A stretch of 64,000 nucleotides of DNA, taken from contig JAKZAN010000005.1 of the NCBI GenBank assembly GCA_023053545.1, positions 9,920,001 to 9,984,000 of the forward strand, given 5' to 3'. This DNA is from Lepidurus packardi (lineage: Eukaryota > Arthropoda > Branchiopoda > Notostraca > Triopsidae). Numbering within the stretch: the first letter of the stretch is position 1; each line of letters begins with the position of its first letter. A model generated the notes under the pieces. That model worked only from the letters and a program-made list of their open reading frames with translations, did no database searches and was not told the DNA's origin. Below, piece after piece: positions 46,401-55,400 of this stretch. The translations under genes were made by a program, and so were the position numbers.

Positions 46401-49400
46401 GCTGCTCCAAAGCAGGCAATTCCCAGCGAATCGATACCACGTCCGGTGTCTGGAACCGGTATGTGATATTCATGGGTGGAGCCGAAGGAATGCCCTCGGG
46501 AGTTAACAAAGCTTGCACGGCTTCTTGGCCAAAACCCACGTGGTTTTGTCCAGCGACCCGAAACTCATATTCCACTCCCCGCTCTGAGAAAAAAGGATCA
46601 TGATACTTAAATATTAATAAAATAATTCAAGACTTAATTACAAACTGAAAACACTAAACGGATTTAAATAATGTAAAGTCATTAAAATTGGTATTCATAA
46701 TATAATTTAAAAATGATTATGAACAGAAGATTGGAAACATAAAAACAGATTTTTTAAAATTCAGGTACTTGTACAGTTTACGCCCCACATTCTAAACACT
46801 AATCCACGAATCTACATCATACGTTCTAGTCGTTCAGATCGTGGGTTCTAACCCACGATCCTATCTGCACAAGTTCCCCATTTTCTAGGCGAAACTTTAC
46901 GTCATCTCCTTCAGACAACCAAAAGCTATAATGAGAGCTTTGTTCTCAGGAACTTATCATTCAATCAAGTCGCTTCAACACTAACCCGGTTGCAGTCATA
47001 TTGTAGATTCGTGGGTTAGTGTTTAGAATGTGGGGCGTAAACTGTACAAGTATCAAAATTCAAGTTCTAGATTACACATTCATAATCGAATTAAAATAAA
47101 TAGGAGATTATCAATCCTAAAGAAAAAATGTAGACTTGAAAAAGATAATTTTTAAATATAAATATTTACAAACTATAGAAAAATACATTGAAAACGGAAA
47201 AGTGGGGAATTACACATATTTAAGTCATTAGATTCCCCATCCCATTTCATGTTTATAAATATTCGTGCAATATTTTGTATATCACAGAATAAAGATCATA
47301 ATCTTCAGTCTTCGACCCACGCTTGACTTTGGAAAAAAAATTCCTAGATTTCAAATACATAATAAAGGTACAACAACTTGGAAATTGAAAATTAAAAATT
47401 GGGAACTAACAACATCTGAACCTATTTGAAAAATCTTTAAAAAGAAAATCTGAAAATTGTTGAAAATTTTAAGTGAATTCAAACATCTTTCAGAAGATCT
47501 TGTTTCTTACCTAAGCCTTCAACTCGTCGGTGTTGTACTTGAGCTCCTTCCAGCAAGACATCAGCCAATTCTCCATCTTTGGGTCCGTACCGGAGCCGAT
47601 AGCCTCGTAGTTCACCAAAAGTCAATGTCGGGCGACTCCACTCAATTTCGACTGTAACCGTTGGTTCTTCTTTGAGCATTCTAAGACCAAAAAATCTATC
47701 AGCAAATGCCAATGAGCAATACTCTCCAAGAGCAAATAGTGCCACAAACAAAATAGCTCGAATGTCACAATTTGGACAAATAATTCTGGACTTCAAAGGG
47801 ATTTGAATGGTTTTTTACAAGCTAAGAATGGTTTGATGGAAGGAAACTATCCTAAACTAACAAGGCCAACCTTAATGTGATAGTAGGACGATTGGGAACG
47901 CCCCCTGGCGTGGTCACGACTTTAGGAGGGGACCTGGAGCCATCGCCTTTCCGTGTAACGGCGGCTACTTGTATTGAATACCCAGTATCAGGCTGAAGTG
48001 TACTCATGACGTACTCTTCAACCAACCCGCCCATGACGTCATATCGAACAGCTTGTCCTACTGCTCCTCCCTTTCAAACGTTTAAGGTAATTAGTTCGTA
48101 AGTTTGGATGATTGTAGATGATTCTACTTTGGCGTCCAATTCCTGGACGTGGATCTGGTACCCACGGATGATTCCATGCTGCTCTTTTTCGGCCGGTGGC
48201 TTCCATTCGACCATGACAGACGTAGAATTGACCACAGTAATTCGTACTTTCTGGGGGTCGCCGGGCACTAATTCAAGAATTGATCATTATACACCGTTTC
48301 TAACCCAGAACTTACGGCGCCCTGGACATGTAGGGCCAAAACAACCAATCCAGTCTACTAACGAATCCATTCAACGAATGTAAAATCTCTCTCACAATCC
48401 ACACACTTATTTTTTTTTAACAAAAATTAGTAGGAAGTTATTCACCACTCGTCACGCACTCACTGACTCATCCATTCATTCAACCATCCTCATAGATCAC
48501 AAGAGAATTTATAGTGAAACGAAGACGTTTTCCATAGCAAACAAGGAACATAAAAATTGAAAGAAAATCGAGAGCAAATCTGAAGAAATATGATCTAGTT
48601 GAAACAAGTCAACAACGGAAGAAAATGGACACGAAATAGAAGCCGAAAAAAAAAGACAGCATGTTTTTTTTAGTTACTTACTTCGAAGAGCTGGAAGTAG
48701 ACCCAATAGTTAGTGTGGAGAAGGGGGGAAATAGGGGGAAAAGAAACAAAGAGACAAAAAATGCGTTCAGAGGATAACACGCACGCACGCATACACACCA
48801 AACGGCTCGCGTAAAGGAAGCCGTTCCCAATTAGCCAATCACGGGATAAAAAGAGACATAGAAGGAAATGAGCTTCATTCTTTCTTCTTCTTTTTTAGGG
48901 GAAATGAAATTGTCTCAGTTCAGTTTTTTGCTTTTTTTTCTTGCTCTGGTCAAGTTGTTTTAAGGCGCGCAGGCCAGGCCAACGGTGATTTATATAAAAA
49001 AAAAGTAGAATCAAAAGTGTTGTGTGTGGGTGATCCCCGATACGTTCAGCAACAGTACATCCATGCGAAAGACGTGGACAACAAAAAGCAGCCAGTCAAT
49101 TAAATTCCCAAAGCTTTTAATCTTTTTTCTCGAAACTGGAGAGAGAAAATAGTGTTCAAAAGTGCCCTAGATGGCAGATCTTTTCAACAATACTATGCCT
49201 TAAGGCCGCGGTGTACAGCAAGTAGTTGACACTTTTGTCAAAAGATGGCAGTGGTGTCATACCATTTCCCATTGTAATGTCATTAAACTTTAAACAAGGA
49301 ATTAAAAGAAACAGATAAAGACAATTGAGAAATTATTTTTCTAAAAGTATCTTAATAGATCTTAGAAAGGAAAATCAACAGGTGAACTAGATCTATACAC

Positions 49401-52400
49401 CCCATGCATTACCGTGGCAATACAATTTCATTATATTGCACAGGACTAGAAGTTTCGAATCAAAATTTTCCATGCTGTAGCACCATAAGGGGTTCCAGTA
49501 TACCGTGTCCATAACAAACTTTACGGAAAGCTTGGATCAGGATTATCAAGCAATCCTCTTGTAAACACAATACACATAAACTGAAAACTGTTAACAGCTC
49601 TTGTGATACAGTGAAACGAGAACAACGGTTGCGACAGAAAAAGCCCGAAATGAGCCAGGAAAGTGTTTGTTTATGTTCTTTCCGGAGTAATGAAGAAATG
49701 TAACTGACTATATTTTCTCTCCATAGGCATTCCAATTAAAGTTTCAGCGTTCTTTCTAAGCACACGGCCATGTAAAAGAAAGAGTAAAAAGCCACTCCCG
49801 TAAGCGATTGGATGTAAAGAGGGTGGTTTACAACTGAAGGAGGAGAGAGAGAGGACAAGATCAGATACATCCAAACAAAACAGTAAAAAAGGGCATCCTC
49901 AAGGTCAAGTTCAAAGTTTCGTCAAAGTCGTAAAAAAGGGAACCCAATGTAGACCCAATTCTGTGCATGCAAGATATGATAAAAACGAAGGAATGTGGGT
50001 GACTTGTGTTAGTTATTCCTAACTAAAGAGTAAAATTGCGAAGAAAGGAAAGAAAGATGTGTTGGGAGAAAGAGATAGGACACAGAACAGTACAAGGTGC
50101 CACTACAAGACCGCCAGGCAATGTGAACAAGTGCCTCCATTAACTTCTCACAACGCAAACCATCTTGCAAGTCTATTTGTGTCGAATAAAAGGTGCTCCA
50201 AAATGTGACCTGTGTGTATGTGTATGTGTGTGAGATGTGTGTAACAAGGAGTGATTCTGTGCTCGGCATTTCCAGTGCAGTTAATGTAAATAAATAACTC
50301 AACGAAAAGAGAAACAAAGAGCCTTTCCATGTTCTATAGGACTCCCCAAACTATGGATTCAAGAGAATCCACAGGTTTCAATAATTCAAAGGTTTCCAGC
50401 TTCCTTACGGCATATTTTTTTTTAAAAAAAATTAGTAACTTCTTTTTTTCTCCAAAGAAGCTAATTATGATTTGTCATTCCCTTTTTTCTTTCTTAGAAA
50501 GAAAAATGCCCCACCAAATGTTATTCAATTAGTCTTGTTAGGCAAATACAAAATAAATAGAAATAAAAAAACTCCCAAAAGTAAAACAGAAAAATTTACC
50601 GTCTTCCTCGGTCCGTACACTGATGGGCATGGACTGGGGTCCATCCCCTACGGCGGTACCAGCTACTACCCAAACTCGGTACTCGGTCCATTTCTTAAGT
50701 TCGTCCAAAACGAACTCCGTGGCTTCGCGGACCAACACAGTAATCGCTTCAGAGTCCGCCCGGGAGGCCTCCACGTAATACAACTTGTAATGGGAAAGAA
50801 TTCCATTCTGGTGTTCCACAGGGGGCGGAGCCCAAGTCACTCGTACAGAGGTGGAATCTTCCGCTTCGGCTCTGAGGTCTTGGGGAGCCGCAGTTGGAGC
50901 TTTTAACGAAGGAGGACGCGCCGGATGAGGCGAAAATTACCAAACAAAACTCACAACTCAAAATACTCGCCAAATAATACTCTTTTTGTACATGTATAAA
51001 AATTAAACATGAATAACTTTACGCTTTGGGAAGTAACAACAAAAAAAAATGCCCAAAGAAAAATTATCCATATTTATTTTCTATTTTCTTCTTCTTCTCC
51101 CCCTTTTCATAAACTCAAATACAAGTCAAAAGTGCTCGTATATATACGCAAACATTGAGTGCTGGTGCTGTTGGAATGTGAAAAAGTGCGTTAGTGCTTT
51201 GAACACAGAAAGACCATCGACGTTCATCAGGAGAAAAACAACCAATATACACAGAAAAAGTCGGAAATACGGCCGCTGGAAATACACGGAAATTGTTTCC
51301 GATGCCAATAACCATGCTTTTATTTCTCTCCTTCTTTGTTCCTGCTCCACCTCCTCGTGGGTTTCTGTGTGGTGGTGGAGGTGCGAGGGTAGAGGGAAGA
51401 GGGAAAAGTACCCAAGACGGTACGGTCTTATACAGATAACGGACACGAAATCAGAGGGTTTTGACGTGGAAGGGAGGTTTGGGGACCACGCCTCTTTTCT
51501 TGTCTTTCTGTCCAGAGGGTGGGCCCTGAACCCAAAACGTTCGTTTTTTTCTTACCTGGAAAACTACTTTCAAGTAAACTCCTGAGGATTCCGGCTGTTT
51601 CAGCTTTAGCCAAAAGTAGAAAAAACTTTTACGCAGTACCAGAACTCAAAAGACCCCCAAAAAATAAATACAAGTCGAGCTTTTTTCTCTACCCTTACGC
51701 TCAAATTTACCAGAGGGTCTTGTAAATCACTTTAGGAACCCTGGGAGAAAGTCGGGAAAACATTCGGGAGAAAAAACGCTGGAAAAAAAATAATGTTACT
51801 TACCATATTGTTCCGTTCGGACGCTGATAGGGGGCGTCGTCGCACCTTCACCTCGACGCGACTTGGCGGCTAACCAGATATGGTAAAGCGTATTCGGGTG
51901 GAGGTCTGTTAACGTGTAAGTTTCTGCCATGGGAAGGGTTCGATGGTGCTTTTCCTAAAATAACCCAATTAGTTTACGTCATTGCCCATGGTTATTTTTT
52001 CCTTTTCTTTTTTGTTCTGGGATGTCTTACATTGATGAAAGTGTCATTCCAATAGAGCTCGTAGTTGATAATATGCTCGCTAGAATGAGCTGGCCGGACC
52101 CATTCCAAAGAGACAGAAGTGGCAGTAATGTCTGTCGGTCGTAAAGTACTTGGTTGACTTGGCACTATGAAAAAAAAAATTGCTCTTTTAGGACTTGCTG
52201 CTCTCTTCACTTTCTTCAAACAAACAGAGCTAAAGTCAATTAAGGGCAAAACAACTTTGACTTTCAAAATAGAGAAAACTATCTAGTTTTCTACTGATAG
52301 TTTTCCTTCCCATCATGATTGAAATGGTACTTCAGCTAGAAAAGACAGAAATATCAACAAACAGAATAACTAGCTTTATAAGGTCACAGACGTGGCAGTA

Positions 52401-55400
52401 TCACGCTACCCAAGAAGCAAGGAAGTAAATAGCAAGCATGGCAACAAGCGCCATGACACCTCTGTGACGTCACGAAGGATAGTTTCGATTGTTTAGAATT
52501 ATGTAAACGAACTGCATGAATCCAAACCTGAACATATGATTTTGGTGGCTACAGTCCTTCTAATCAGGCTTGTAAGAGTACGTTTCAAGTATTTTTATGC
52601 TATAACAAACATTCGACGCCAAAAAGAAACTACAGATTTGTTCAAATTCGCTCAAAAACTTTCAGTCAAAACAGGTCAAATACTTTACACTGGAACGAAG
52701 GTTTAGTTAGTCTGAAATCCCGAGCTATTTTCCTTATTAACTATAGAATTACTTAGCTAGTGACCGTGCACTTTACGTGCATCACAATCACGCATTGCGT
52801 GACTGTAACACCTCTTGGGATTTCCAAGAACTCTCGGAATTTCAACACACATATGCATAGCCCTCTTAAAGCTCAACAATCCCGGTAAAGCTTTACCTCC
52901 TTGCTGTGTTTTCACTTGCACCGGAGCAGACAGTGGTCCTGGACCCACCGAAGTGTGTGCTTGGACACGGATCGTATAAATGGTGTGTGGTGTCAAGTCG
53001 CTAATCGTGGTTAACTGATTATTATCCACGCGTTGCGAATCCCAGGATGCAATGGGGAGATTAGGGTTGGTGGTATAGTACACTTTGTACGCCTGGAACG
53101 GAAAATGTTCAAACAGACAAATTATGCAGGGAAGCAACATCTTCCGTCGACGTGTGATTCACTCAAGTCTCACCCGTCCACGTCAACAACTCTTTAGTGT
53201 CGAAATACCGGAATAATCTTAGAAAATCAAACGGCGAAAATTTACCGTCACTTGTCCATTAGGCGTCTCGGGCTCTTCCCATTGAATGACCATAGTACTC
53301 GAGCTGAGTGGCCGTACTTGGACGTTCCGGGGCGAGCTGCCGGGTTCTGTGTTGGATGCAAACAAGCAATGTCTTAATTAACTGGGCTATTCCTCCCCTG
53401 ACCCCCCTTCATTCCTCCCATACAAGCTTTTCATCTCTTACTCGCGTGTCAACTCCTTCTTCAAACATTTAGACTCCGTACACAACCCACCCAAAACTCA
53501 TCCCACCCCGTTTTCTACCTAAAGCCGGAATGTACGTTTCCTGACATGTACAAACCTTGTCCCTTCATTGATATCGGATCTAGATGGTACAAAAGAGGAA
53601 ATAACAAGCACGTAAACAATTCCGGAGCGAGTTCTTCGTCCCCTAAACCCCCTACCCCTGTCTTCTTTTCCCCTCAAATACGAAGTATTGTCCTGTACAA
53701 TGGGTGCAGATGGCGTTACAAGACTTACTTGGTCCTCCGAAACTGGGGTCAGCTAGAATAAGGGAAAATGGAAGCTTTGCGTTAGTGGGGAATTTTGATT
53801 GGTTAGCAACGACGAACAGAAAGTCAGAAAGAGACCCAAAACTCAAACTATGAAACGTTCTAACATAAAGGGAGAGGTACAATCAAAATAAAGCGTAAGG
53901 TACACGAATCTACGAGCCTCCCCACCAGAAAGGCTAGAAAACTAGTAAAAAAAACAAACAAAATAAAAATAAAAAAAAAACACACACCTGTTTCGCCGGT
54001 AGTCACAAAAGCAGGAGTACTGGCCGGTCCCCTTCCCACGGGATTGACCGCCAGGACGTAGAACTCGTACTCGGTGAAAGGACTCAGGTTCCGTACTGTG
54101 TAATAGTTGGTTTTGACGCCGCTGATCTCTGATTCATGGCTGGCCGCTAGTTTCGGTTTATACTGGATCACAAACTCGACAGCATCGGTGGGTTGGGCGT
54201 CGTAATGCCATGAAACGTGGACTGTCGTGGCCGTCACTTCCGAAATTCGGACATTGGAAGGCGCGTACGGCAATGCTAATACCGAAAAAACACAGACATT
54301 AGATAGAGAGTCAGAGGGACGACGTCCCAAAAATAAAAGCAAAACGACAGAATGAAAAAGGAAGGGACATAGTAAGACAGAGTACCAGCATCAACACGAA
54401 CAGCAATCAGGCCACGACGCAAAAAGGGGAGAAACAAAAAAAAAAAACGAAAAAAACAAAAACAGGAAAAAAGGTTAAAGTACTTTAAACTTTGCATTGG
54501 CTTTCTATGCTAGCAAATGGCAGTAAGAGCTATTTCCACAAGATTTGAAGCACATCAACCTTTAGAAGAACCCAAAAAAATCGCTTCCACCAAATTCAAT
54601 TCTCCTCCCACTTTTACGTCTGTTTTTCATTCAGCGTTTGAGAGCAACGGAGGAAAAATCTTTACGAATCTTTTCTTTTCCCGAAGAAGAAGAAAGCCGC
54701 CTAACTTTCTGACTCTTAACTTAGTCCTCAGCTATAATTTCTCTTCCTCACAACTTTATATCGGACTCGGAAAAATAAGAAAAATAAATAAAACAATCTG
54801 AAAAAGGAAAAGAATAAGAGACGGAACACAACTAAGAATTACTACCAACGGAAGAATAGCACGTGAACTTGGTTCAAAAATCCTAAAGAAAAAGGTACTT
54901 CGTGACTTCTCGCGGTTCTCGACAACTTGTGGCCGATACAGGGCCAAGTTAACTGGCCTGAGTACCCACAATAAACGAATAAGTATAAAACGAGCTGAAA
55001 AGTCTGAAAAAATTGACCTTGTAAAAAGTTTTCAAGTTTTTGTGCCCCGCAAAATAACCTTTCAACTTTTCTTATTTTGCTCTTTGGTGCCAAAACAAGG
55101 TAGCTTGTTTCCTACATTCTTTAGCCGGATTTTTTCTTTTTTGCTTTTTGGGGCTAGAGAAATATTTGACAAAATACAGTTACCAAAAAGGACAGAAGAA
55201 AAAAAAAATTAGTCAAATTTACTAAAGAAAACAACGTAGAGAATACGAACTAACGTTTTTACAAAAAAAAAAAAAAAAAGAAAAAAAAACGAAGGAAAGA
55301 AATACAGAAGCCAAACTTTTTTCTTCCATGAGCTTCCACATAAAAGCTGGAAGGCCATAACCATAAAAAAAAAGGAAAAGAGAGGGCCTGGGGAAAGTGA

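Follow-up and report, generated by a model that had tools for sequence, protein, structure and literature searches.

A candidate 9-nt cassette microexon at the FN4–FN5 boundary of a Lar-type receptor gene of Lepidurus packardi

The 9-nt candidate and its host intron

Nine nucleotides (CTCTTCGAA, 48690..48682, minus strand) within the FN4–FN5 intron of a Lar-type receptor phosphatase gene carry splice signals on both sides, lie in phase and contain no stop codon. The single best interpretation of these nucleotides is a cassette microexon, in view of the quality of both sites, the frame-neutral and stop-free insert, a rare AG-free stretch upstream, a match to the eMIC domain elsewhere in the genome and a second candidate of 24 nt in the same gene. 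Whether they are a genuine optional exon of Lar we regard as evenly poised. The letters, coordinates, strand and frame neutrality given in the original prediction were confirmed on re-reading the sequence.

The window, that is the whole 64,000-nt stretch analysed, corresponds to C4:9920001-9984000 of a 108.56 Mb assembly of 344 contigs. The receptor is encoded on the minus strand from ~57.4 kb down to 40.8 kb of the window. Its exons were placed by homology and by eye; a fly Lar protein served only for this placement. Single exons match the Pfam profiles fn3 and Y_phosphatase, which, together with the PTPRD matches of joined exons given below, assigns the gene to the type IIa receptor tyrosine phosphatases. 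The upstream constitutive exon, FN4 (50600..50899, minus strand), matches fn3. The downstream constitutive exon (48128..48267, minus strand), comprising the first part of FN5, matched no Pfam family when searched alone. The joined FN4–FN5 pair gave a solved PTPRD chain (6x3a) as its best match, with a chain named Lar (6x38) also among the matches, and a PTPRD chain was likewise the best match of the Ig2–Ig3 join. The assignment of the site to the FN4–FN5 boundary of Lar, as originally proposed, is thus supported by the fn3 match and by the PTPRD match of the joined exons. The junction formed in the absence of the insert, EED-V-PGDP, aligns with EDVPSGPP of PTPRD.

The host intron is 2332 nt in length and of phase 1. 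The candidate had been placed in the middle of this intron; it actually sits 82% of the way through, with 1909 nt before it and 414 nt after. Inclusion converts EED-V-PGD to EED-ALRM-PGD (phase 1-1, stop-free). The predicted gain of three residues is correct as a net figure, but this is not a plain insertion, since V is replaced by ALRM. The candidate is bordered on the minus strand by ...CTACTTCCAG and by the donor GTAAGTAAC (48673..48681, minus strand); the longer flanks read ...CACTAACTATTGGGTCTACTTCCAG before and GTAAGTAACTAA after. The acceptor region (48691..48805, minus strand) is free of AG for 113 nt upstream of the acceptor AG and is 76% pyrimidine over 80 nt. Four overlapping TCTC/CTCT motifs are found within the upstream 115 nt. 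A CTAAC begins 23 nt before the exon, and the 19 nt between its branch-like A and the exon include GGG. All three acceptor elements described originally (CTAAC, pyrimidine tract and AG) are present, but not in the order described: the long tract lies upstream of CTAAC and not between CTAAC and the AG. Either site could in principle pair elsewhere, such that the two would belong to different or longer alternative exons. The lack of any AG within the 113 nt upstream argues against this, as does the donor being the only sense donor in the host intron to score at least 8.59, and we consider such pairing exceedingly improbable.

A dispersed repeat copy of ~160 bp (49200..49357), with at least 40 further matches in the genome at 79–85% identity (one of them short), occupies the upstream part of the host intron and does not overlap the candidate. 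The copy ends ~500 bp before the candidate, whose flanks matched only themselves with no second copy found in this genome, and a repeat origin was therefore rejected. No relatives of the FN4 exon were found in genome_contigs, a collection not meant for other arthropods, so this result has no bearing on conservation; a 22-nt pattern across the 9-nt exon had no exact match in viral_contigs, likewise not meant for arthropods.

Splice-site strength and the rate of chance pairs

Splice models were self-trained on introns joining open frames, drawn from 20 segments of 10 kb spaced 1 Mb apart on C1–C4, and comprised 183 introns with the window or 152 introns without it. By the window-trained model the acceptor of the candidate is of median strength and the donor stands at the 84th percentile. 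By the model without the window the two sites score 8.3 and 8.1; among the Lar sites, 10 of 25 acceptors and 5 of 23 donors reach or exceed these values. Both sites match many real Lar exons in quality, and the description of the donor as strong is borne out. Among 706 acceptors scoring at least as high as the candidate, which is itself counted in, nine reach an AG-free stretch of 113 nt, as do 0.23% of 30,450 AGs. A pyrimidine content of 76% over 80 nt is reached at 6 of the 706, again counting the candidate; AG-free length and pyrimidine content are correlated. This long AG-free, pyrimidine-rich stretch is rare and adds weight to the microexon reading.

The branch-point motif adds nothing here, because CTAAC turns up at trained introns no more often than at other AGs that resemble acceptors. 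Placed upstream with no AG in between, it is seen in 2 of 183 trained introns (1.1%), at 12 of 1132 other acceptor-like AGs (1.1%) and at none of the 25 Lar acceptors. The degenerate form CTAAY is so placed in ~12 of 183 trained introns (6.6%) against 36 of 1132 other AGs (3.2%). Used as a filter at a summed score of 16.5, CTAAY retains one pair in the Lar introns (the candidate), none in 400 kb of random strand and 7 in 1500 shuffles of the host intron; this filter was picked after the candidate had been seen, and the branch point was dropped as evidence.

The uninformative branch motif is one point in favour of a chance origin, by which a pyrimidine-rich stretch of a long intron has come by accident to end in CAG, with GTAAGT nine bases further on, and is not spliced at all, or at most as occasional noise. 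We put this at somewhat under an even prospect. In-frame acceptor–donor pairs lying 3–36 nt apart, with both sites at least as good as those of the candidate, were counted using the model trained without the window. The training set is noisy and real short exons occur within random DNA, so that all such rates are only approximate. Seven pairs were found in 400 kb of random strand (about one per 57 kb), three in both strands of the window, and two in the sense strand of the 24 scanned Lar introns (~10.86 kb) with none in antisense. Out-of-frame pairs numbered four in the 400 kb, one in the window and none in the Lar introns. The corresponding expectations are 0.041 for the host intron, 0.19 for all scanned Lar introns and ~2.2 for both strands of the 64-kb window. 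Observing at least two pairs in the Lar introns has P 0.016, yet the threshold was set by the candidate itself; given the candidate, one more Lar pair has P 0.17.

The same test with the window-trained model gave two Lar pairs against 0.11 expected (P 0.0055), and three looser thresholds gave 3 against 0.35 (P 0.0056), 4 against 1.03 (P 0.021) and 5 against 2.66 (P 0.13). At a summed score of 16.5 the Lar introns hold three pairs in sense and none in antisense, where 400 kb of random strand yields 21 and shuffled Lar introns average 0.6. At the loosest setting there are seven in sense and two in antisense, where ~4 are predicted from the random rate of 155 in 400 kb. At relaxed thresholds the Lar introns are hardly enriched. 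When the host intron was shuffled preserving dinucleotides (window-trained model), 3 of 300 shuffles held an in-frame pair equal on both sites and 17 of 300 a pair of equal summed score. The candidate is thus unusual for its intron, where only 0.04 equal pairs are expected, but would not stand out in a whole window inspected by eye: with about two chance pairs expected per window, a reader scanning 64 kb will find some. The splice motif by itself is not decisive.

Further splice-site pairs and a probable eMIC machinery

A second candidate microexon of 24 nt, CTGACCCCAGTTTCGGAGGACCAA followed by GTAAGT (53752..53729, minus strand), lies in the 641-nt FN1–FN2 intron, which separates the exons 53988..54275 and 53246..53346. 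It is in frame and stop-free, and would replace the E of TGET-E-PGSS by ADPSFGGPK. Its splice sites outscore those of the 9-nt candidate, and its summed score of 21.1 (window-trained) lies above 20, a range to which 400 kb of random strand contributes one pair and the 128 kb of window strand two. The presence of this stronger pair in another FN-boundary intron, like the rarity of the long AG-free pyrimidine zone, speaks against a chance origin of the 9 nt. Pointing the other way, a 30-nt pair at 51740 has the same summed score as the 9-nt candidate (16.6) and contains an in-frame stop, thus good-looking pairs that cannot be coding do exist within Lar. A 33-nt pair at 47851 also has an in-frame stop if its intron is of phase 1, as assumed, and pairs of 3 nt at 52213 and 12 nt at 51644 have lower scores. 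Apart from the 9-nt and 24-nt candidates, the pairs in the Lar introns look like chance. Outside the scanned Lar introns, the window-trained model picked out two other strong in-frame pairs, one of 30 nt at ~21597 on the minus strand and one of 9 nt at ~5243 on the plus strand.

The host intron itself contains one weaker in-frame pair, GGCGCC (6 nt, 48316..48321, minus strand) followed by GTAAGT. It scores slightly lower than the 9-nt candidate and starts 54 nt before the FN5 acceptor, so its use as an exon would leave an intron of 48 nt; it is probably chance or a decoy. The FN5 acceptor is weak (score 1.3), the second lowest among 25 listed Lar acceptors, and none of the 24 scanned introns is longer than the host intron. 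Both features would suit a role of the 9-nt candidate in splicing regulation, in which it would act as a decoy exon or pausing site and detain the spliceosome ahead of this acceptor. In true zero-length recursive sites the AG directly abuts the GT. Here nine bases separate them, FN4 joined to CTCTTC would, as judged from its letters, rebuild no donor, and regulation of this kind leaves the frame neutrality unexplained; we consider it very improbable.

According to the accessible text of PMC8797185, neural programmes of microexon splicing are driven by the eMIC domain of Srrm234 throughout Bilateria. The SRRM_C profile gave no match at E ≤ 0.001 in this genome or in 14 control genomes. At a loose threshold there are three matches in this genome, and 3 of the 14 control genomes also yield matches, none over the cut-off. 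The first match (profile positions 2–58, C5:4360862-4361029, E 0.0014) stands at the 27-bit cut-off with its neighbours; it has one TAA inside and is RS-rich and of low complexity. The second covers positions 55–67 (C5:4361643-4361681, E 0.018) and the third is on C6 (E 0.32). The two pieces on C5 are collinear on one strand, 5 kb downstream of a Cwf21 match (C5:4355795), and together with RS-rich frames weakly suggest that C5:4355795-4361681 is a Srrm234-like gene. The residues encoded there are SPSFLDKRRIT and then TSARKRPIPYHRP, which we take to be the core of the human SRRM4 eMIC. From the collinear pieces following Cwf21 and these core residues, eMIC machinery is probably present in this genome. 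A second Cwf21 locus, over the curated cut-off, is located at C2:2528288-2528422 on the minus strand.

The eMIC exons of fly, in the portion of PMC8797185 available, have long AG-free zones, UCUC tracts and CUAAY, features that the 9-nt candidate shares. They are also described there as having weak splice sites at both ends, a UGC next to or close by the acceptor, and short introns on either side. The candidate differs in its median acceptor, 84th-percentile donor and introns of 1909 and 414 nt, and has no UGC in the last 60 nt before the exon. The microexon interpretation originally offered therefore receives partial support: site quality, frame and the AG-free zone favour it, while the chance rate of pairs, the uninformative CTAAC and the features unlike those of fly do not.

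If the cassette microexon is genuine, skipping of the 9 nt would be the default and yield EED-V-PGD, whereas some cells, most probably neurons, would retain them and make EED-ALRM-PGD. The FN4–FN5 linker would then gain three residues with one positive charge (Arg), and its greater length would likely change the interdomain angle or the flexibility of the ectodomain. We infer that splicing would be biased to neurons through an eMIC protein and that the altered linker would affect binding; partner switching may be conceivable at this boundary.

Comparison with vertebrate LAR-RPTP mini-exons

Vertebrate LAR-type receptors are a prominent example of very small exons that decide synaptic partners. 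In the available text of PMC8711739 and PMC12598525, meA is placed in Ig2, meB between Ig2 and Ig3, meC inside FN5 and meD near D1; tuning of partner choice is shown there for meA and meB, and the function of meC is given as unknown. The precedent of partner-tuning mini-exons on which the original prediction drew therefore holds for vertebrates, as far as these texts go, but at Ig2 and Ig2–Ig3 and not at the boundary considered here. The meA and meB exons of PTPRD, PTPRS and PTPRF, as described, resemble the 9-nt candidate in being very short, frame-neutral, optional and sited in the ectodomain of receptors of this family. The candidate is likewise short, with a frame-neutral and stop-free insert (phase 1-1, ALRM). 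The 4-residue insert of meB also sits at a domain boundary, as the candidate does; the likeness of ALRM to the ELRE of meB we take as coincidence. The candidate coincides with none of the known positions meA, meB, meC and meD. From the same partial sources, meC shares its region of the ectodomain with the candidate but is embedded in FN5 and not at the FN4–FN5 boundary.

Solved PTPRD chains carry ELRE exactly at the Ig2–Ig3 exon junction of this Lar gene, and in one PTPRD chain IRGALQI aligns with ARGSLQI at its Ig2 junction. As read from the accessible parts of PMC8711739 and PMC12598525, IRGALQI corresponds to the end of meA6 plus the next exon. The alignments at these two junctions place introns of this gene at both the meA and the meB position. 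Neither of these introns holds a microexon candidate, even at relaxed scan thresholds. A microexon of mouse Ptprd and Ptprf, located after the last FN repeat and before the transmembrane segment according to the available text of PMC10883964, differs from the candidate in position and illustrates that new LAR-family microexons are still being discovered; the intron matching its position here (~908 nt) contained no candidate in the scan.

No report of an arthropod Lar microexon or of an FN4–FN5 mini-exon stood out in the openly available literature that was searched. Mini-exons are already known in the LAR family; the FN4–FN5 position, if real, is new so far as the literature was searched. A wider proposal, that this arthropod Lar has its own set of FN-boundary microexons (24 nt at FN1–FN2 and 9 nt at FN4–FN5) with none at the meA and meB positions, strikes us as rather unlikely. 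If true, it would represent a microexon code that evolved independently within the same receptor, tuning the FN stalk instead of the Ig tip. An arthropod Lar microexon at a site different from those of vertebrates would raise the question of whether splice-tuned adhesion arose twice in one receptor.
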